A stretch of 64,000 nt of DNA from Candidatus Saccharimonadales bacterium. Its GTDB lineage: Bacteria > Patescibacteriota > Saccharimonadia > Saccharimonadales > Saccharimonadaceae. Positions 6,390-59,009 of the stretch are shown here, piece by piece (position 1 is the first letter of the stretch; each line of letters begins with the position of its first letter). The stretch lies in the NCBI GenBank assembly GCA_035317825.1, contig DATHGB010000009.1, positions 1 to 64,000 on the forward strand, in the 5' to 3' direction. The position numbers and the translations under genes were made by a program. The notes below the pieces were generated by a model, which saw only the letters and a program-made list of their open reading frames with translations, was not told the DNA's origin and ran no database searches.

Positions 6390-7220
6390 TCAGATAGATT
6401 TTATAGTAATATTTGCAGAAATAGCTCGGTGGTCAGAACCACCATCTTTAGATACTGAAAAACCTACAGCCTGGATCTCTGGTGATGCAAATATATGGTC
6501 AATCTGTGCCATGCGGATACTTGGCATCCATTCCATTTCCCGAAGTTTTGGTGTCGTCGTAGGTATATGCAATAGATCGATATCGCGCAGATTTGTTTCT
6601 GACTCTAAAAATCGTAAGGAAGTACCTGTTGCCATTTCAATTAACATTCCCGCACGTCCTTTTATGCGTTTATGAGGAATGAGAAAAGTCATACCTTTTA
6701 CTACCTTATTTTGGATAAACTGACTTTTTTGATCAAGGTGCATAGCGTTAAAATCACCGAGCATCACCGTGGGCATATTACTAGAATTTATAAATGATAC
6801 AGCATCTTTTAACTGCGCTAATCGTCGCGTTTCTGTCCGTTCGTCAAGATGAGTCGCGATAAAACGTATTTTTTGGCCAGATTTCGGATCTTCAATAACA
6901 ACAGCCAAAAGACCGCGCACATCGTTCCATCTTAATTGCTTATTTTCAAGAATTTTGAACCTGCTTAACACCCGAATATAAATATCATCTGGATGATCTT
7001 CGTCGTTACGCTCATCATACCTTGCATCTTGCCATTCATATCCCATTTTCTGCAGACGTTCATTAACTCCTGTGGCGGGTTGTCCCATATATGCTTCCGG
7101 CAGAATAAATACATCAGCATTAATTGTTTCGATCATATTTAAGATTTTCTCAGGTGTGCCACGACGCTTTTTTGTCATCAATGTCAACCGGCCTTCAACA
7201 TTCCAGGACGCAATCTTCAT
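6390..7220 (-). CDS. Endonuclease/exonuclease/phosphatase (EEP) family hydrolase
   Basis: This 276-residue protein shows the full metal-dependent EEP fold: SWNVEG at the start, the metal-binding Glu in FILPEAYM, THLD, the GDFNA motif with the catalytic Asp/Asn, IDHIFAS and the final SDHRAI pair. It would hydrolyse phosphodiester or phosphomonoester bonds with Mg2+; DNA repair nuclease, sphingomyelinase-like and inositol phosphatase members all share these motifs. It starts 2 nt after the uvrB stop, so it is co-transcribed with a repair gene. That favours a role on nucleic acid but does not prove it. No signal peptide is seen. Confidence 0.85.
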   Translation of the reverse strand: MKIASWNVEGRLTLMTKKRRGTPEKILNMIETINADVFILPEAYMGQPATGVNERLQKMGYEWQDARYDERNDEDHPDDIYIRVLSRFKILENKQLRWNDVRGLLAVVIEDPKSGQKIRFIATHLDERTETRRLAQLKDAVSFINSSNMPTVMLGDFNAMHLDQKSQFIQNKVVKGMTFLIPHKRIKGRAGMLIEMATGTSLRFLESETNLRDIDLLHIPTTTPKLREMEWMPSIRMAQIDHIFASPEIQAVGFSVSKDGGSDHRAISANITIKSI

Positions 7221-50390: not shown

Positions 50391-52751
50391 TTAGTTGGGG
50401 ATTTTGCGAGTCTTTTTACGACCTGGCTCTTGAACGACTGCTTTAGGCTCCTTTGATTTCGGCACATTATCGTTAGTATTAAACTTGGTTGCATAGTTAT
50501 GCCGCGAAGCCTTGATGATATTTTTTGCCATACTAATATCGGGGTCTTGTTCAACTAATAAGGTTTCTCCGGAGAATGCTTCTTGTATCTTTGTTGCGGA
50601 TATGCGAATGTAAAAGTTAAATTGAGGAAGACTGATAATATCACCCTCTTCTAAGTAAGGTTGAAAGTATGGTAGCAGTTTTTTCTCATCCGTGGGATTG
50701 CCAGATCGGAAACTAATCACGGTACCGACATTGGCAAGAATAATATCGACCATTCGGTAATCGTCCTGCTGTGAAGTGCTTTGCTCTGCCATTGTAAGGT
50801 AGAGCCTGTATTTACGCGCTTCAGATAGCATTTGGACAAATGAGGATGTTGCAAAGTTTTGGAATTCGTCAACATACAGATAGAACGGAATACGACTTTT
50901 TTGCGACAGCCGCGCACGTCTCAGTGCTGCAAGCTGTAATTTAGCAAGTACAGCAATACCAAATAGCTCCGATGTATCCTCGCCAAGTAAGCCTTTTGAG
51001 AAATTACAAATGAGAATCTTACCGTTAAGAATTTCGTCGAAGTTGATCGTAGATTTTGGCTGCTCTAAAATACGCTTTGCCGACGCAGAGAATAAGAAGC
51101 GTCCAATCTTGGAGGTGATACCGGCAACCATTTTGACCTGTTGCATACCACCCGCTTTGCCCATCTCGTTTCGCCAGAAGTTCTTAAGGTCTTTATTATC
51201 AAGCTTGCTGACGACCTTCTTTCGATAAGCTGGATCATTGAGTACATCGTAAATAGTAAACAATGTCGCATCTTCTACGTTAAGCGCCGTATGTATGGCA
51301 TTACGAAGGACGTATTCGATACGATGGCCGCCACTGTCATCTTCGGAAAATATCTTACGGAATATCGATATAACGGATTCGGTCACAAGATCTCGTTCAC
51401 GTAGTGCATTCTCCTCGTCAAGTCCCGAAGTCAGTTCAAGTAAGTTGACACCAACCGGGTACGATAGATCATCAGGATTAAAGTAAATAACATCCTTTTC
51501 ACGCTCTTTTGGAATAGAATGAAGCAATGATTCGGCTAGATCACCATGAGGATCGACGATCGCAACGCCTTTGCCGTTTCGGATGTCCTGAATTAATCCA
51601 TACTCAAGCATGGTGGTTTTACCATTTCCTGTACCACCAATAATGAAGATGTGCTTCTCCCGCTCTTTTGCAGTCAAGCCAATGTCGGTATAGATGCCAC
51701 GATGGAAATTACGACCGAGAACTATGTCATAGTCAGTATTGTTAACTATAGACAAAGGAGGTGCTAGTGTGCGGCTCAACGACACGACAAGATTATCTGC
51801 CGTGGTGTGACTTGCTGGAAAATGATAAAGGTTGGCCAGCTCTAGAGACGAGAATACGTTGGAGTTACGCACTATCAGTGATGGCATACGATGAGTAAAC
51901 GCCCACTCACGATAACGACCACGTAAGGCTTGCGGAAAGTTATAGCGAGTTGTAAGACTTTGTACCTTTGGAATACTGAATGATGCAATGGCGGATTCGA
52001 CACCGTGCAGACGTTCCTCTTTATCTTTTGAGCTGGTAGCGACAACGCGAACCCTTAGTTCGGAGCGGAAGAGGTGGCCGTAGCCTTTATTGTGTGTTGC
52101 ATCAGATACCTTATAGAATTCGTGATAGCGGTCAACAATTGCCGCCATATTGCGAACACGTGCGGGTGAGATAACGAGTTGCAATGTTACCTGTTCATCA
52201 TCGGAAAGTCTATTCATAGCGCCTGCAATATAGGCAATCGGGTCATGTTGCTCAAATGTAGCGAGTGTCCGAATCGGTAGCGCAAAGTGTTTTGTTTGCT
52301 TAAATTCTTTTACTTTTGTAAAAGCATTCCTTTTCAGTAGCGGATCATCGATTCTTTTAACACGCGAGCCACTCAAGAAGGCGGCTATACTCCGCTCGAT
52401 TGCATCAGCTTCTCGTTCACTTGTCCCGATGACATACCGCACTCCCTCTCTGCGAGTTGAGATTACCTCCAGCGAAAATATATTATTACGACGCAAAAGT
52501 TTGTACTTAAACTTCTGGGTTGCGCCTGCACCATGGAGAATGTGAAATAGTTGTTCTGTTGCCTCAGGCGTTTTACTTGCCTCATGCGATGGAGTAACTT
52601 CAATAAAGATCTTCTTCTGTTTGTAGATTCGTTTAAGATCAACAAAACGGATATACGCCATAAAGAGAAGGAGTATCAGGAGTACGATAGCACCAATTAC
52701 TAAATAAGTAATCAATGCTTCATTACTGCCTAATCGTAAAATATGTTCCAT
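50391..52751 (-). CDS. VirD4/TraD-like type IV coupling ATPase
   Basis: The 786-residue protein couples DNA or protein substrate to the secretion channel. An N-terminal helix (about 15-36) anchors it; a mixed region of about 300 residues follows; then the motor domain has Walker A (FIIGGTGNGKTTMLEYG), VAIVDPHGDLAESLLHSIP, Walker B (FYLYVDEFQNFATSSF) and a C-terminal SLPQFNFYIRI segment. This architecture (DUF87/TraM-recognition ATPase) is typical of conjugation systems in Gram-positive bacteria and CPR. It ends with a basic tail (PGRKKTRKIPN). The gene starts 4 nt after the M23 gene. Confidence 0.88.
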   Translation of the reverse strand: MEHILRLGSNEALITYLVIGAIVLLILLLFMAYIRFVDLKRIYKQKKIFIEVTPSHEASKTPEATEQLFHILHGAGATQKFKYKLLRRNNIFSLEVISTRREGVRYVIGTSEREADAIERSIAAFLSGSRVKRIDDPLLKRNAFTKVKEFKQTKHFALPIRTLATFEQHDPIAYIAGAMNRLSDDEQVTLQLVISPARVRNMAAIVDRYHEFYKVSDATHNKGYGHLFRSELRVRVVATSSKDKEERLHGVESAIASFSIPKVQSLTTRYNFPQALRGRYREWAFTHRMPSLIVRNSNVFSSLELANLYHFPASHTTADNLVVSLSRTLAPPLSIVNNTDYDIVLGRNFHRGIYTDIGLTAKEREKHIFIIGGTGNGKTTMLEYGLIQDIRNGKGVAIVDPHGDLAESLLHSIPKEREKDVIYFNPDDLSYPVGVNLLELTSGLDEENALRERDLVTESVISIFRKIFSEDDSGGHRIEYVLRNAIHTALNVEDATLFTIYDVLNDPAYRKKVVSKLDNKDLKNFWRNEMGKAGGMQQVKMVAGITSKIGRFLFSASAKRILEQPKSTINFDEILNGKILICNFSKGLLGEDTSELFGIAVLAKLQLAALRRARLSQKSRIPFYLYVDEFQNFATSSFVQMLSEARKYRLYLTMAEQSTSQQDDYRMVDIILANVGTVISFRSGNPTDEKKLLPYFQPYLEEGDIISLPQFNFYIRISATKIQEAFSGETLLVEQDPDISMAKNIIKASRHNYATKFNTNDNVPKSKEPKAVVQEPGRKKTRKIPN

Positions 52752-52755
52752 AAAA

Positions 52756-53382
52756 TTAAGTCCTTGGTGGTGGGTTACCGATCATAAATACGCGCGGGTT
52801 AACAGGAATGTTCGCAATCTTAATCTCGAAGTGTAGATGGGCACCATGAGCCCAGCCTTCTTCTCCCTCAAGTCCTATGATGTCACCGGGTTTTACAGGC
52901 TGTCCAACTTGTACCTTATGAGAAGACATATGCGCATAAATTGAAGTAATCCCGAAGCCATGATCAACAATAATGCAGTGCGAGCCGCAACCTGCAAGAA
53001 CATTATCGCCAGCCTTAATAACCTTACCTTGCATGAAAACTGTTACAGCAGAGCCAAAACCACCATCAATATCAATACCACTGTGGGCTACCTGGTATGG
53101 TGGATTAGGATCTCCAAACTCTTGTGTTACCACTCCTCGGATTGGCCATGTCGTTGTCGCGTCCATGGTCGTTATAAGCGTTCCCTTAGCGTCGCGAACC
53201 TCGACTTTGTGCGTTACGGGATCAACAGAAACCAATGCATCTGACGCGCCCTGAACACCGTTGTTAAGCAGTCCGATGGTAGCAAATATAGGTAGGAGAA
53301 TTATTGCCACAATTACACCAATAACAATACCGATCTCCTGACGGAATGAGTATACGGTCATTGCTACGCGGATGTATTGCAT
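52756..53382 (-). CDS. Membrane-anchored M23 peptidoglycan hydrolase of the transfer operon
   Basis: The 208-residue protein has an N-terminal transmembrane helix (about 16-45) and a LytM/M23 zinc peptidase domain with VAHSGIDIDGG (HxxxD), SIYAHMS and AHGAHLHFEI (HxH). It would cut peptide bridges in the cell wall to let the secretion channel through. I start at MQYIRVAMTVYS, 1 nt after the VirB4 stop; a longer reading would lie inside virB4. Confidence 0.9.
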   Translation of the reverse strand: MQYIRVAMTVYSFRQEIGIVIGVIVAIILLPIFATIGLLNNGVQGASDALVSVDPVTHKVEVRDAKGTLITTMDATTTWPIRGVVTQEFGDPNPPYQVAHSGIDIDGGFGSAVTVFMQGKVIKAGDNVLAGCGSHCIIVDHGFGITSIYAHMSSHKVQVGQPVKPGDIIGLEGEEGWAHGAHLHFEIKIANIPVNPRVFMIGNPPPRT

Positions 53383-53383
53383 A

Positions 53384-55129
53384 TTAGTCGTCTCGCTTAG
53401 CGAGTGTCTCCAATGGATTAGTCGTAATAAGTGGGTGTTCTTCTTCCGAAGCGGTGACATGAAGTGAGACATGTTGCTGGTCGGCAATAATTAGTGCATC
53501 ACCTCTATCACTTGTGAGAAGATACGACTTTTCATAATCACTAAGTCGGAATTCACGGGTGACTTGTTCAATGGTAGTCGTATCTTGCCGCATAAGAATA
53601 CGAAGTGAGCTTTGCGATGCAATAGCCCGGCCGTATTTGTCGGATAAGAAATCATTTGCTTGTTGGGTAATGATCGAGACACCAAGTCCGTACTTACGTG
53701 CACGGCGTACCAGTCCAGCAACAAAGCGAGCTGTTTCCTCATGCTCAAGAAGCATCCAGCCTTCATCAATAACAAGCATTCGCCGTTGAGGATCTTGTTT
53801 AACGGTATTTTGTACGAAATTTGCGACGATCATCATCATGATTTGGCGAATTGAATCAGGTAAATCTTTGATATCAAAAACCACAAGTCGGTTTGTGAGA
53901 TCAATATTTGTCTGGTAGTTCAGTACATCCGCCATCGTACCAGTGAGATACTTCTCAAGACGCTCACACAGATCCGCCTCTTTCATTTTCTTCAGCTGCT
54001 TGTAGAGATCCTCAAGAATAGGAGACTTCTTCGCTTTATAAACGGCAAGGATAGCCTTATCAAGAGCTGCTTTTTCCGGAGCACTTAGACCGTCAACCAT
54101 TAAGGCGATGACATCAGTTAAATCTTGAGCGTGTGCAGATACCTGTTCGGAGCTGCGAGAGGTAGTGGCCATATCAAATGGGTTGATCTTTTGTTCTGAT
54201 TGAGCCGACAACTTAATGTAAGAACCACCGACTGAACTTGCAAGATTCTGGTATTCCCGTTCCGGGTCAATAACAATCACTTTTGTACCTTGCATGAGCT
54301 GACGAAGGATCTCTACTTTAGTCGTATAGCTTTTACCGCTACCGGACTGAGCAAACGTGATGCTGTTCGCATTATGCAAACTAAAACGATCAATAATGAC
54401 CAGTGAGTTGTTTGAGTTATTAACTCCGTAAAGAATACCGCCTGGTTGGACAAGCTCCGATGACACAAAAGGAAAGGTTAATGCTGCTGTTTCGCTATCC
54501 AGATTACGGCGCTGCGCAAGAACGTTCTCACCACGCGGAAGAGTAGATTGCAGACCTTCGATTTGTTGATATTGAGCGGTTTTAATATAAAACAAACGAG
54601 CGCTCAATGAAGATTTTAAGCTATTCGTAATATCGTTCAACTCTTCTAATGAGCTACCGATAAGTGTTGCATAAATAGAAACATGAAAGAGCTTTTGCTG
54701 ACCACGACGAATAGCATCGCGCAGTTCCATAGCTGAATCGAGAGGATCAGTAAGTTCGGAGCCGATGATACCGCCATCTCGTAACTTGGAACGTTTCATA
54801 GACTCTAATTGCGTAATCTTTTTCTCGAGCTTTTTAAGAGCTTCATTTGAATCTGCTTGCTCAACATGATATGACACGTCAATATCGTGGTTTAAATGTG
54901 TAAGTGAATCAAGCCAACCTACTTCAGCGGTAAATGGATAGCCCGATAGAAAGATAGTGCGGCGAAATTGACCATCAATAATGAGGTGATCAGGCTGTTC
55001 TTCCATTCCGGCATACGAAATAATATCCATTGGATCTTGTTCGCCAAACGAGAGCGTGTGCTGCTTTGGCTTTGCATCGCGTTCGCGCTGAATTTCTTTG
55101 AATTTAGTGATAGGATTTGCTAATTTCAT
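53384..55129 (-). CDS. virB4: VirB4/TraE-like secretion ATPase
   Basis: The 581-residue ATPase energises pilus assembly and substrate transfer. It has the VirB4 N-terminal part (DHLIIDGQFRRTIFLSGYP), Walker A (FAQSGSGKSYTTKVEILR, about residue 265), VIVIDPEREYQNLA, Walker B (RMLVIDEGWMLLEHEETA) and SIITQQANDFLS. Length is shorter than in Agrobacterium VirB4 (789) and matches Gram-positive TraE-type. It has TAAGGAG before the ATG. Confidence 0.93.
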   Translation of the reverse strand: MKLANPITKFKEIQRERDAKPKQHTLSFGEQDPMDIISYAGMEEQPDHLIIDGQFRRTIFLSGYPFTAEVGWLDSLTHLNHDIDVSYHVEQADSNEALKKLEKKITQLESMKRSKLRDGGIIGSELTDPLDSAMELRDAIRRGQQKLFHVSIYATLIGSSLEELNDITNSLKSSLSARLFYIKTAQYQQIEGLQSTLPRGENVLAQRRNLDSETAALTFPFVSSELVQPGGILYGVNNSNNSLVIIDRFSLHNANSITFAQSGSGKSYTTKVEILRQLMQGTKVIVIDPEREYQNLASSVGGSYIKLSAQSEQKINPFDMATTSRSSEQVSAHAQDLTDVIALMVDGLSAPEKAALDKAILAVYKAKKSPILEDLYKQLKKMKEADLCERLEKYLTGTMADVLNYQTNIDLTNRLVVFDIKDLPDSIRQIMMMIVANFVQNTVKQDPQRRMLVIDEGWMLLEHEETARFVAGLVRRARKYGLGVSIITQQANDFLSDKYGRAIASQSSLRILMRQDTTTIEQVTREFRLSDYEKSYLLTSDRGDALIIADQQHVSLHVTASEEEHPLITTNPLETLAKRDD

Positions 55130-55137
55130 AATGCTCC

Positions 55138-55752
55138 TTAAAGGTAATTCCTTTGTAGCAAGTCAATGGTTTGTTGTGTGAGAGGCTGCTGTTTCGCGTC
55201 GGCTGCATTATACGAGTTATAGAATAAATCCAACAGTTCAAGGCTATTCAGCAGACGGGTCTTAATCCCTACATTTCCGAGCCCCTTTTCTGCGATAGCA
55301 AGTCTGTTGGCTAATTGCTCGCGAGCAACTTCGATATTTTCCTTACTTTTAGTCTGATATGGAATGATGATGTAAAACTGTCTAGACAGAATTTTATTTG
55401 TCTTCACGAGGGACTTTACATATTTCGTGTAGCCATCGATTTGATTCTTATATACATCGACTTTCTCTTTATCTTTTTTGTCTTCAAAACTTTGGAGATA
55501 ATCATCAAGGTCAAGTGCACGAACTTTCTGGACGATCTGAATTGGAAATGAAAGCGAATTAAGAAAAGCTTTGTAGATATCTACTACCGCATCTTGCTCA
55601 TCTTCACTCATCAAATGAAAGTTAATGGATGAGGTTTCTATAATAATTCGGTATTCATTATTCGGGAGGATTAAGACACTGTCTTCAACACCTTTTATGG
55701 CTATTTGATGACGCGATGAACCCTTCTTATTTAACTTCGGTAATGTGAACAT
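55138..55752 (-). CDS. TraC-like conjugation protein
   Basis: The 204-residue soluble protein (KGVEDSVLILPNNEYRIIIETSSINFHLMSEDEQDAVVDIYKAFLNSL) resembles the TraC-like domain that in many Gram-positive systems precedes VirB4 and corresponds to its detached N-terminal part. I start at MFTLPKLNKKG with GAGAG upstream; the longer frame overlaps the PrgI gene. Confidence 0.8.
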   Translation of the reverse strand: MFTLPKLNKKGSSRHQIAIKGVEDSVLILPNNEYRIIIETSSINFHLMSEDEQDAVVDIYKAFLNSLSFPIQIVQKVRALDLDDYLQSFEDKKDKEKVDVYKNQIDGYTKYVKSLVKTNKILSRQFYIIIPYQTKSKENIEVAREQLANRLAIAEKGLGNVGIKTRLLNSLELLDLFYNSYNAADAKQQPLTQQTIDLLQRNYL

Positions 55753-56233
55753 TGAGCTCTCCTTTCTTTCCAATCTCAAATTTCATTCCAGCCCTCGTAT
55801 CAGTTGCAAATTGTTCCAATCGAACGAACTCTTTAGGTGAAATATTGCTTGTGGTGATAATTTGCTTTTTAGTTGACTGAACCTCTACGACCGTCTCTGA
55901 AATTACTTCTGTTGTATCTGTGTCACGTAAATAAGTTGAGTTCTTGTCATAGACATAGTAGAGCGGACGAGCACTGTAGATGACAAATAATTTAAGCCAC
56001 TGAGCAACGATTCGATCTTTAATACGGATTGCCAGTGAGCCACAAATAATGAATAGGCTGATGACAATAACTATTTTGTATGTAACAAACTGTCCTGATG
56101 GTGGAAAAACGAGAGCAATAATAAATCCAATAAGGATAGGAATACCGAGAAGCATCGCCTGTTGAACAGAAACATTTCCGGCAATTTTATCTTCAACCGT
56201 AGTGATTTGAGCAGGAACAATAGATATTCTCAT
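55727..56233 (-). CDS. PrgI-like (VirB3-type) membrane protein
   Basis: The 168-residue protein starts MRISIVPAQITTVEDKIAGN and has two close transmembrane helices (about 27-70), the layout of PrgI proteins in enterococcal and other Gram-positive conjugation operons. A soluble C-terminal tail of 80 residues is added. The gene overlaps both neighbours. Confidence 0.85.
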   Translation of the reverse strand: MRISIVPAQITTVEDKIAGNVSVQQAMLLGIPILIGFIIALVFPPSGQFVTYKIVIVISLFIICGSLAIRIKDRIVAQWLKLFVIYSARPLYYVYDKNSTYLRDTDTTEVISETVVEVQSTKKQIITTSNISPKEFVRLEQFATDTRAGMKFEIGKKGELNVHITEVK

Positions 56234-57681
56234 TATTTTTTACCTTTCGATTTTCTAATAGGTTTTTCGGTCATATTAACATTCGGTTTTGTAGCCCCGC
56301 CCGATACGATAACTTCACGTTGAGAGGCTTTCTTATCCGTTAAAGCGGCGGCGGCTTTTCGTGGAGATACTTGACGCGTCTCACCCGTAGCTAACGCAGT
56401 ACTCGCAGACATAGTAGGCCGAGCACTAGAAACGGCTGGGCTACTCGTTCGGGTTGCTGACACACCTGGCTTTACGGCATCTGCCTTTTTAACAGAGCTT
56501 GCAACATGGCTTACGCCTCGTACAAATGTATTGCCAAGTTTTCGCATTCCTTGACCGCCAGCACTCATCATAGTTAGCTGATTCATTGTTCGGTTTGTAG
56601 AGAGTAGGACAGAAAGCGTAGCAATGACGAGTAATGACGTCATCATGGGATCACCCTCTCCCTTCATTAAGCCAGAGAAGAGAGAGACCGCGAGCATGAG
56701 GACGACTACTTGTACGAACAATACGAATATTGTTGTTATGTACATTTTTGCCGCAGACACCGCGAAATCTCTAAAACTTGGAAGTAGCCAGAGCAGCGCT
56801 ATGAGTGGCGATAGCACGGCACCAATATAGAGAATAATGATACGTTTAAGGTAATAGATAAGGAGCATTATTGCAAAGATAATAGCAACGACTATTAATA
56901 GAAGAACGCCAATGTTAGTGCTGGCTAGTGCCGCAGTTGCAATAAGACCACCTAACGCTGCCCATATGATATCGTTGGACATTCCAATTAACAAAGCTTG
57001 AATCATTGCATTTGAAACAGTGATGATGGCATCAATCGCAAATATTGAGACATTTGCGATTATAAAGACAAGAACGATCTGAGGGATGATTGAGCGAATA
57101 TCGACGTCTTCAAATCCCACTACCGACGAACTCATTATTCTAAATCCGATAAGCCCAATAACGAGCAAAAACAAGACATCTGCAATAGCTACTATCACCA
57201 CCCATAAATTAAAGACGGCTCCATTTTGCGCCATAAGAGGGGTAGCTGTCGTAAACTGCTTCAGAGCACCTACAATCGGCTTGCCAATTGACTGAACAAT
57301 GCCGCTCATAAACCCAGCAATACTTTGATTCATTACCTCACACAATGGACAGTTACTTTTTACTTCCTGGACTTGAGTTTGCACAATTGGTGTAGGCTGT
57401 GAGGTCTTCTCGTTATAGGCACCCTGCATAATCGCTACGAGTGCCCCTGCACCTAAAACAACTACGAAACCAATGAATGCATTTCGTAATGTTTTCTTTG
57501 CTCGTTCAAGCTTTTCGGGATTACCCGCACTTGTCATGTAATAATAGCCGCCAAATACGACGAACAAAATACACAAAACAGCTGCTACGGTAATCATAGT
57601 AGAGAATAGAGGTGAAATACTTGATTTCAACGCTTCAGATGCGGCCTGTGCGTCCGCGAAAAATAGCAGAGATGTCGTCAC
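56233..57681 (-). CDS. VirB6/TrbL-like channel protein with pilin-like N-terminal module
   Basis: The 482-residue membrane protein has a signal-like start, a first module with two helices (LFVVFGGYYYMTSAGNPEKL then ERAKKTLRNAFIGFVVVLGAGAL) and then about six helices typical of VirB6/TrbL (SSSVVGFEDVDIRSIIPQIV ... IIILYIGAVLSPLIALLWLLPSFRDFAVSAAKMYITTIF). A basic, Ser/Lys-rich cytoplasmic tail follows. The first module is very close to the separate VirB2-like pilin encoded 3 nt upstream, so the protein looks like a pilin-VirB6 fusion. Confidence 0.82.
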   Translation of the reverse strand: MTTSLLFFADAQAASEALKSSISPLFSTMITVAAVLCILFVVFGGYYYMTSAGNPEKLERAKKTLRNAFIGFVVVLGAGALVAIMQGAYNEKTSQPTPIVQTQVQEVKSNCPLCEVMNQSIAGFMSGIVQSIGKPIVGALKQFTTATPLMAQNGAVFNLWVVIVAIADVLFLLVIGLIGFRIMSSSVVGFEDVDIRSIIPQIVLVFIIANVSIFAIDAIITVSNAMIQALLIGMSNDIIWAALGGLIATAALASTNIGVLLLIVVAIIFAIMLLIYYLKRIIILYIGAVLSPLIALLWLLPSFRDFAVSAAKMYITTIFVLFVQVVVLMLAVSLFSGLMKGEGDPMMTSLLVIATLSVLLSTNRTMNQLTMMSAGGQGMRKLGNTFVRGVSHVASSVKKADAVKPGVSATRTSSPAVSSARPTMSASTALATGETRQVSPRKAAAALTDKKASQREVIVSGGATKPNVNMTEKPIRKSKGKK

Positions 57682-57684
57682 TTT

Positions 57685-58023
57685 TTAGCTTCCGAATGAA
57701 GATTTTGCTATACCCGCAACGAAGTCAACAATAACATACGCTGCTAGAACTATTACAAGACCGACTCCTGAATACAGAAGAGTCTTCTTCGCTTTATCTA
57801 GTTTCTCTGGATGGCCAGAGCTTGTAATGTAGTGGAAGCCACCAATTACCATAAAAACAACCGCTACCGCACCGGCAAGACCGACAAGTGTCTTAACAAT
57901 ATTTTTAATAAAGTTTTCTGTTTGCGTTGCACCGTCTATGGCCAATACTGCATCCGCATTAAATAGCGCCGCTACGATACCAATAACCCCAACAATTAGG
58001 ATGAAGTTCCTAATATTCTTCAT
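57685..58023 (-). CDS. VirB2-like pilin/channel subunit
   Basis: The 112-residue protein has a signal-like N-terminal helix ending near NADAVLA, an extracytoplasmic part and two further helices around VFMVIGGFHYITSSGHPEKL and KTLLYSGVGLVIVLAAYVIVDF. This is the pattern of TrbC/VirB2-type pilins in CPR and Gram-positive systems. A leader with AAAGGGAGAG precedes the ATG, with TATAAT-type boxes farther up. Confidence 0.82.
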   Translation of the reverse strand: MKNIRNFILIVGVIGIVAALFNADAVLAIDGATQTENFIKNIVKTLVGLAGAVAVVFMVIGGFHYITSSGHPEKLDKAKKTLLYSGVGLVIVLAAYVIVDFVAGIAKSSFGS

Positions 58024-58129
58024 TTCTTATACTCTCCCTTTAAATAAATCTATTATATATATCGTAACAGATTATACGTTAAAGGAAATATATATTTTAA
58101 TATGGTTATGCTAATTGGCCGATAGCTTA

Positions 58130-58528
58130 CTAGTAGTAATCGGGACAGTTTTTAGTGATATAGTCACTAACGCGCACCTGCGAACCGCTGATTCCAAGTT
58201 CTGTCGAAGTCGCTTTTGAGGGATCATTTATAATCGTCTCATAGCCCTTAATGATTAGAGATGTGTCTGAATGTATTTCGCTCGGCGCTACATCATCCAT
58301 TTTTTTCACCGAACTTAAAAGCTGCTCCATACCAGTATCAGGATCAAAACTACCTTTCTGTTCTTTCGCCACACGACAGAAACTAGCTACTGATCGTTCG
58401 GGTTTAGTGAGAAAGAAGATACTGACAATTGCAATTAAAACTAACACCCCGGCACCTGCAATAAGCATCAATTTTTTCTTGTCTGATAAAAGTGACGAAT
58501 TCTTATGAGTATTTTGTTTGTTCTCCAT
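58130..58528 (-). CDS. Single-pass membrane protein of the transfer operon
   Basis: The 132-residue protein has a cytoplasmic N-terminal tail, one helix (LMLIAGAGVLVLIAIVSIFFL, about 20-40) and an outside domain with two Cys (SFCRVAKEQ ... ITKNCPDYY) likely to form a disulfide. No family is recognised. It is in line with the secretion genes. Confidence 0.7.
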   Translation of the reverse strand: MENKQNTHKNSSLLSDKKKLMLIAGAGVLVLIAIVSIFFLTKPERSVASFCRVAKEQKGSFDPDTGMEQLLSSVKKMDDVAPSEIHSDTSLIIKGYETIINDPSKATSTELGISGSQVRVSDYITKNCPDYY

Positions 58529-58551: not shown

Positions 58552-58800
58552 TTAATGTTTCGTTTCGTGTAGTTTCAGATAGTAGGCCAGTGGATCGTCA
58601 ACTTTATGGCCTAGACCTACCCAATTCGGAAATACTTCACGTTGAATAAGACTGTCGTTGAGTATGGTTCGTACCTTTCCTTCGATCGTTACTTCACGAT
58701 CTATAAGTCCTCGTAAATATGTGCGTGTAGGATATTTCTTGAAGTAGTCGATATCTTCTATCAACTTAAGTAATTTAAAATAAACTTCAACTATCATCAT
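58552..58800 (-). CDS. Small basic/aromatic protein, first gene of the transfer operon
   Basis: The 82-residue protein is soluble, rich in Tyr and Leu, with no recognisable domain. Two possible ATGs lie at its start (MMIVEVY). It is the outermost gene at the right end of the element, 18 bp from the putative end repeat. Confidence 0.6.
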   Translation of the reverse strand: MMIVEVYFKLLKLIEDIDYFKKYPTRTYLRGLIDREVTIEGKVRTILNDSLIQREVFPNWVGLGHKVDDPLAYYLKLHETKH

Positions 58801-58847
58801 TCTATAAATATCTTATCAGTTTGGTTTGTATAAAGACAAAGATGAAA

Positions 58848-58957
58848 TAAAAAGACACTATTAGTGTCATCTCGGCGGTAGAGCGAGGAAAGTATTTCCA
58901 TAACTACGATTGTCCACCACAACAACTCCCGTTCGGTAAGATCCTCACTCGTACCTA
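58848..58957 (-). ncRNA. Candidate structured small RNA (about 110 nt)
   Basis: On the minus strand an extended -10 (TG at 58970-58971, TATTAT at 58963-58968) is followed after about 6 nt by GGTAC-GAGTGAGGA, which pairs with TCCTCGCTC-TACC 52 nt downstream: 13 bp with one bulge (58942-58955 with 58877-58889). Inside lies a 5-bp hairpin (GGAAA/TTTCC) and a weaker GTTGT/ACAAT stem. A terminator with GACAC/GTGTC and T5 (58849-58868) ends the unit. There is no open frame of note. I do not recognise the family; it is not 4.5S, 6S or tmRNA by motif. Confidence 0.55.
58849..58868 (-). terminator. Terminator of the candidate small RNA
   Basis: GACACTA/TAGTGTC form a perfect 7-bp inverted repeat, followed on the minus strand by T5. 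No protein gene on that strand precedes it. Confidence 0.7.
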
Positions 58958-59009
58958 GGGTGATAATAGCATAAGTATCATGAAGTTTGTAGCTATAAGT
59001 GTCTCAAAA

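Follow-up and report, generated by a model that had tools for sequence, protein, structure and literature searches.

The window, the whole 64,000-nucleotide stretch of DNA analyzed here, carries on its minus strand a T4SS gene cluster and, adjoining it, a free-standing predicted gene for a small RNA. The features of this region are as follows.

58963..58971, minus strand: extended −10 promoter TG-C-TATTAT, TGCTATTAT (from the sequence)
58849..58956, minus strand: predicted small RNA of about 108 nt (start inferred from the −10 spacing; end at the last T of the terminator)
58942..58955, minus strand: closing stem P1, 5' arm GGTACGAGTGAGGA, with one bulged C (fold; covariation in homologues)
58877..58889, minus strand: closing stem P1, 3' arm TCCTCGCTCTACC (fold; covariation in homologues)
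58895..58929, minus strand: near-invariant core GGAGTTGTTGTGGTGGACAATCGTAGTTATGGAAA (homologue comparison)
58909..58926, minus strand: inner hairpin P2, GUUGUU-GUGGUG-GACAAU (compensatory variants in L053 and L065)
58849..58868, minus strand: intrinsic terminator, a 6-bp stem (hairpin 58854-58868) followed by T5 (58849-58853)
58552..58800, minus strand: 82-aa ORF downstream of the RNA, first gene of the T4SS-linked operon, with orthologous order in G121
50391..58528, minus strand: T4SS cluster encoding a VirB2-like pilin, a membrane protein with a T4SS_pilin domain, a TraG/VirB4 ATPase and a coupling protein

Predicted RNA gene in the window

A first-pass annotation had described an extended −10 sequence on the minus strand, a 13-bp closing stem (58942-58955/58877-58889) beginning at the predicted transcript start, internal hairpins and a T5 terminator, all within a stretch free of protein genes. 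Each of these elements was indeed found, with the extended −10 at 58971-58963, the inner hairpin at 58909-58926 and the terminator hairpin at 58854-58868, and no protein gene overlaps the RNA region. P1 of the window copy has 13 pairs, one of them G-U, and one bulged C, and the predicted start at about 58956, 7 nt past the −10 sequence, is the foot of this stem. The G-U pair had been taken as compensatory, but a lone G-U pair in the window stem does not count as compensation. The fold of the window RNA differed only moderately from that of shuffled sequences (z = -2.1 to -2.3), and since there is no −35 match, the site was not listed by the promoter scan.

The region with homologues elsewhere comprises 58845-58976 on the minus strand. 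The window copy scored 81.4 bits with the covariance model (E 2.5e-17), the window sequence itself being in the training set of that model. No Rfam family matched the 301-base region searched with E values up to 5, and the homologous loci gave only tRNAs and one sub-threshold tmRNA, in agreement with the earlier remark that the RNA resembles no familiar class. Further T4SS loci of the same kind, L112-L115 and L124, do not have the RNA. L124 (G000:C30:16919-17263), a second locus in the window's own genome (G000), encodes a paralogue of the 132-aa protein of the T4SS operon and has no RNA copy upstream.

Homologues at the 3' end of rsmD

The same genome contains a second copy (C8:32400-32536), which is 80% identical and extends exactly from the −10 sequence through the terminator. 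Its host gene (L002:1076-1621) belongs to the RsmD family (Pfam PF03602) and is an intact rsmD on a contig other than the window's. Homologues were present in 50 of the 101 relatives examined, and the covariance model matched in 64 of 295 Saccharimonadales genomes, that is, in about 60, with one copy each except for G000 and G121, which have two. The match in G088 (3.0e-4) falls in a glycosyltransferase gene and is probably a chance match. Nearly all copies form the 3' end of rsmD, the gene for a 16S rRNA methyltransferase. The setting outside any protein gene, as first described, therefore holds for the free-standing copy in the window but not for the family, whose usual home is coding sequence. 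Likewise, the claim that chance was unlikely had a modest basis in the single sequence, whereas the covariance model score, the second copy and the homologues among the relatives are far beyond chance.

Outside Saccharimonadales, the RNA was not found in 380 sampled genomes of the phylum. An exact search of GTDB genomes for the core gave 77 loci, almost all in Saccharibacteria; by a rough motif test, 72 of these are in an rsmD frame, and the cultured strain TM7i (CP075337) is among the carriers, with an rsmD-embedded copy. Phage and plasmid collections gave no match, and viral contigs did not contain the core. When 26 rsmD loci without the RNA were searched with model R2, unfiltered, only L065 was found. 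Of the rsmD-embedded forms found, L065 (the rsmD of G004), whose inner hairpin is rewritten, diverges most and offers a good starting point for more distant relatives. At L130 (2627-3028; JAUPWL010000001.1), a fusion joins a fragment of the downstream FAD-oxidase gene to another 3' portion of rsmD, which follows it and has a degraded core.

In a codon alignment of the 47 rsmD genes carrying the core, synonymous conservation was at or near expectation in codons 1-126, and three segments were nearly invariant at synonymous sites: CAG-TTW-TCC-ACA (codons 127-130), CTT-ATG-GTA-TTA-TCA (codons 143-147), which is the extended −10 sequence, and GGA-GTT-GTT-GTG-GTG-GAC-AAT-CGT-AGT-TAY-GGA (codons 159-169). 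The extended −10 sequence, TATGNTANTATC, is present in 47/47 rsmD-embedded homologues and in the free-standing copies as well. The DnaA-box-like sequence TTWTCCACA is found in 47/47 RNA-bearing rsmD genes, its distance upstream of the −10 hexamer being 43 nt in every case, and in 3/27 rsmD genes lacking the RNA. Of the RNA-bearing genes, 41/47 are followed by a terminator (4/27 of those lacking the RNA).

Stem covariation, free-standing copies and a mobile-element link

Covariation of the 12-pair closing stem was measured on an alignment of 45 sequences (A1). The stem was paired in 92.2% of cells, compared with 47 to 57% in slid controls, and contained 40 two-sided changes (13.2 ± 3.3 in shuffles; 0/500 shuffles reached the observed value) with a covariation score of 0.332 (0.196 in shuffles; 0/500). 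G-U pairs occur as well, for example, GU in 19 and UG in 10 sequences. Pair 11-91 joins the synonymous third base of Gly150 to the second base of codon 176 and is T-A, A-T or C-G in 45/45 sequences (GGT/TAC, GGA/TTC and GGC/TGT). The best tree of codons 1-126 requires 9 changes of the pair and likewise 9 of the left or the right base alone; this tree is weakly supported, and its strongly supported branches force a single change of the pair. Some of the covariation is thus shared by descent. Variation in the inner hairpin is rare and affects both sides together. In L053, V160D occurs with N165I, and in L065, UUGUU/GACAA is replaced by ACGUU/GACGU; both are double substitutions that change amino acids and keep the hairpin.

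Copies with a broken reading frame that have promoter, stem, core and terminator are those of the window and G121, those of L174 and L195, and that of G026. No rsmD precedes the window copy. This copy and that of G121 (L101), which are from different families, both lie just upstream of the same T4SS-linked operon, and their stems are both 13 bp long but differently paired. In L174, a metagenome assembly, an rsmD of a different type (PF03602) lies on the opposite strand and is followed by the solitary RNA; the locus is flanked by a phospholipase-like gene and by tRNA and translation genes, and the RNA carries TTTTCCAC, the −10 sequence, a restructured stem and the terminator. The L195 copy, at a contig edge, resembles it. 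In G026 (L105), an intact RsmD of another type is followed by the free RNA. All free-standing copies fold with P1 and the terminator (z, -2.3 to -4.2); the minimum-energy fold of L174 has P1 and lacks P2. In the simplest reading, rsmD would have been replaced in the L174/L195 and G026 contexts while the RNA stayed. Since the RNA was retained where rsmD is of another type, we regard it as a functional unit in its own right.

A tyrosine recombinase gene (PF00589) in G038 ends about 100 nt before an RNA copy that is cut at the inner hairpin (GATTGTC-TAGGTG-GACAATC). What follows the cut copy is the former rsmD tail, terminator included, then an ORF of 199 aa and the FAD-oxidase gene that natively lies downstream. 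The recombinase element (G038:C54; L098 1205-2101 and L108 9005-9931) thus sits in the rsmD/RNA hairpin, and the attachment repeat restores both gene and RNA. Since a tyrosine recombinase element lies in the inner hairpin of G038, the RNA appears to serve also as an attachment site. The pattern is clear in G038 alone and was not seen for the window copy: the single tyrosine recombinase of the window's own genome lies on another contig. A 27-bp, core-only copy, GGAGTTTTTGTGGTAGACAATCGTAGTT, the second copy in the G014 genome (L109, about 6713-6757; G014:C1:447716), adjoins an island that encodes a DNA methylase and a Panacea-type antitoxin and is probably an old attachment end.

Interpretation and comparison with known systems

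Taken together, the comparative data make it very probable that the window contains a free-standing member of a new family of structured, presumably trans-acting small RNAs of Saccharimonadales that is usually nested in rsmD. The first-pass annotation was largely right in proposing a new structured small RNA: the homologues, conserved pairing, compensatory changes and lack of an Rfam match have all been confirmed. The usual or ancestral form would be a gene within a gene, in which the final ~55 codons of rsmD, together with its 3' end, hold promoter, body and terminator of the RNA; the same bases would thus encode the C terminus of RsmD and an independent RNA of about 110 nt. Several lineages have the RNA free of rsmD, and the window copy is one such derivative.

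What else could the locus be? A cis-acting structure could stabilize the rsmD mRNA from its 3' end or, in the case of the window copy, serve the T4SS operon as attenuator or leader, and the terminator does stand about 50 nt ahead of the first ORF of this operon, in the window and in G121. However, no single gene regularly follows the RNA and its terminator, which occur after rsmD, after a replaced rsmD in either orientation and ahead of T4SS genes, and most T4SS loci of this kind lack the RNA. A cis-acting role is therefore improbable. Homology of the window copy to the 3' end of rsmD, its broken frame and the intact rsmD on another contig of G000 would also be expected of a functionless, decaying rsmD remnant left by recombination, but this copy has kept stem, core, −10 sequence and terminator despite the lost frame. 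Moreover, its 13-bp stem was re-formed after a loss of 2 nt from one arm, and the syntenic ortholog in another family (G121) has the same parts with a differently paired stem. Constraint thus did not end with the frame, the stem being re-formed and the core invariant in the free-standing copies, and decay is very improbable.

An attachment-site palindrome had been named at the outset as a finding that would speak against an RNA. The recombinase gene close to the cut copy in G038 and the core-only copy beside the island in G014 would fit a DNA element of integrative elements that is conserved for recombination rather than as RNA, and the inner hairpin of G038 is indeed used by an integrase. This leaves promoter, covarying outer stem, G-U pairs and terminator unexplained, none of which an attachment site needs; most copies have no integrase nearby, and the window copy retains both flanks. 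We consider it highly unlikely that the family is nothing but such a site.

As a trans-acting RNA, the primary transcript would start near 58956 and fold, closed by P1, such that the invariant 35-nt core is presented: P2 with its GUGGUG loop, then AGUUAYGGA. It would act through one conserved cellular partner. Apart from the RNA gene itself, there are essentially no sites with the 11-nt complement of the loop (anti-loop), and pairing with 16S rRNA was marginal compared to shuffles (17/400). For these reasons a protein, to which we give an even chance, is slightly favored over a short-seed mRNA, a possible but less probable partner. No long antisense target shared by all carriers was found, and the anti-loop search speaks against one. 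Mimicry of 16S rRNA was no better than in shuffles (162/200).

In the rsmD context, TTWTCCACA lies at about -64 to -56. The site was found in the rsmD copies and in L174; the window copy, G121 and G026 do not have it where it would be expected. The window's own genome encodes a DnaA with domain IV, and the site might put the RNA under DnaA control, although this is doubtful. An order-wide regulatory RNA with a DnaA box at a fixed distance could even couple replication initiation to a trans-acting RNA that left rsmD more than once and whose hairpin doubles as an integration site, but we consider this unlikely.

Evidence for the family comes from covariation visible through a coding sequence and from natural experiments, that is, loci at which the protein gene is of another type and the RNA remains; the family shows that an RNA gene can live inside a protein gene or stand free of it. 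Little work seems to exist on structured RNAs of Saccharibacteria, which are ultra-small parasites, and in the literature outside subscription journals we found none described. A covariance model is now available, and the cultured carrier TM7i allows a direct test of expression.

Like 6S RNA (RF00013), the RNA is small and structured, with a closing stem and an internal unpaired region, but RF00013 does not match the window region, and weak candidates in relatives lie elsewhere. Full-length, sub-threshold 6S matches of ~150 nt were observed in three Saccharimonadales genomes (L094, L095 and L096); they are possibly a divergent 6S RNA of the phylum. Genes for tRNA, tmRNA and small RNAs serve as integrase attachment sites, and the G038 element resembles these cases in that it sits in the RNA hairpin and carries a 3' part that restores gene and RNA. 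Unlike them, this RNA has its place inside a protein gene, and the role is clear only in G038. By its anatomy, the closest known kind is the small RNAs with ORF-embedded promoters at mRNA 3' ends, such as DapZ in dapB, MicL in cutC, and MicX (reviewed in PMC9438474). As in MicL and DapZ, the rsmD copies (not the free-standing window copy) have their own promoter inside the coding sequence, the RNA ends at the intrinsic terminator of the gene, and an independent RNA product is predicted. Phylum, host gene, sequence and fold are different; in addition, covariation of the present structure runs through codons of the host gene across an order, and several lineages have copies free of that gene.
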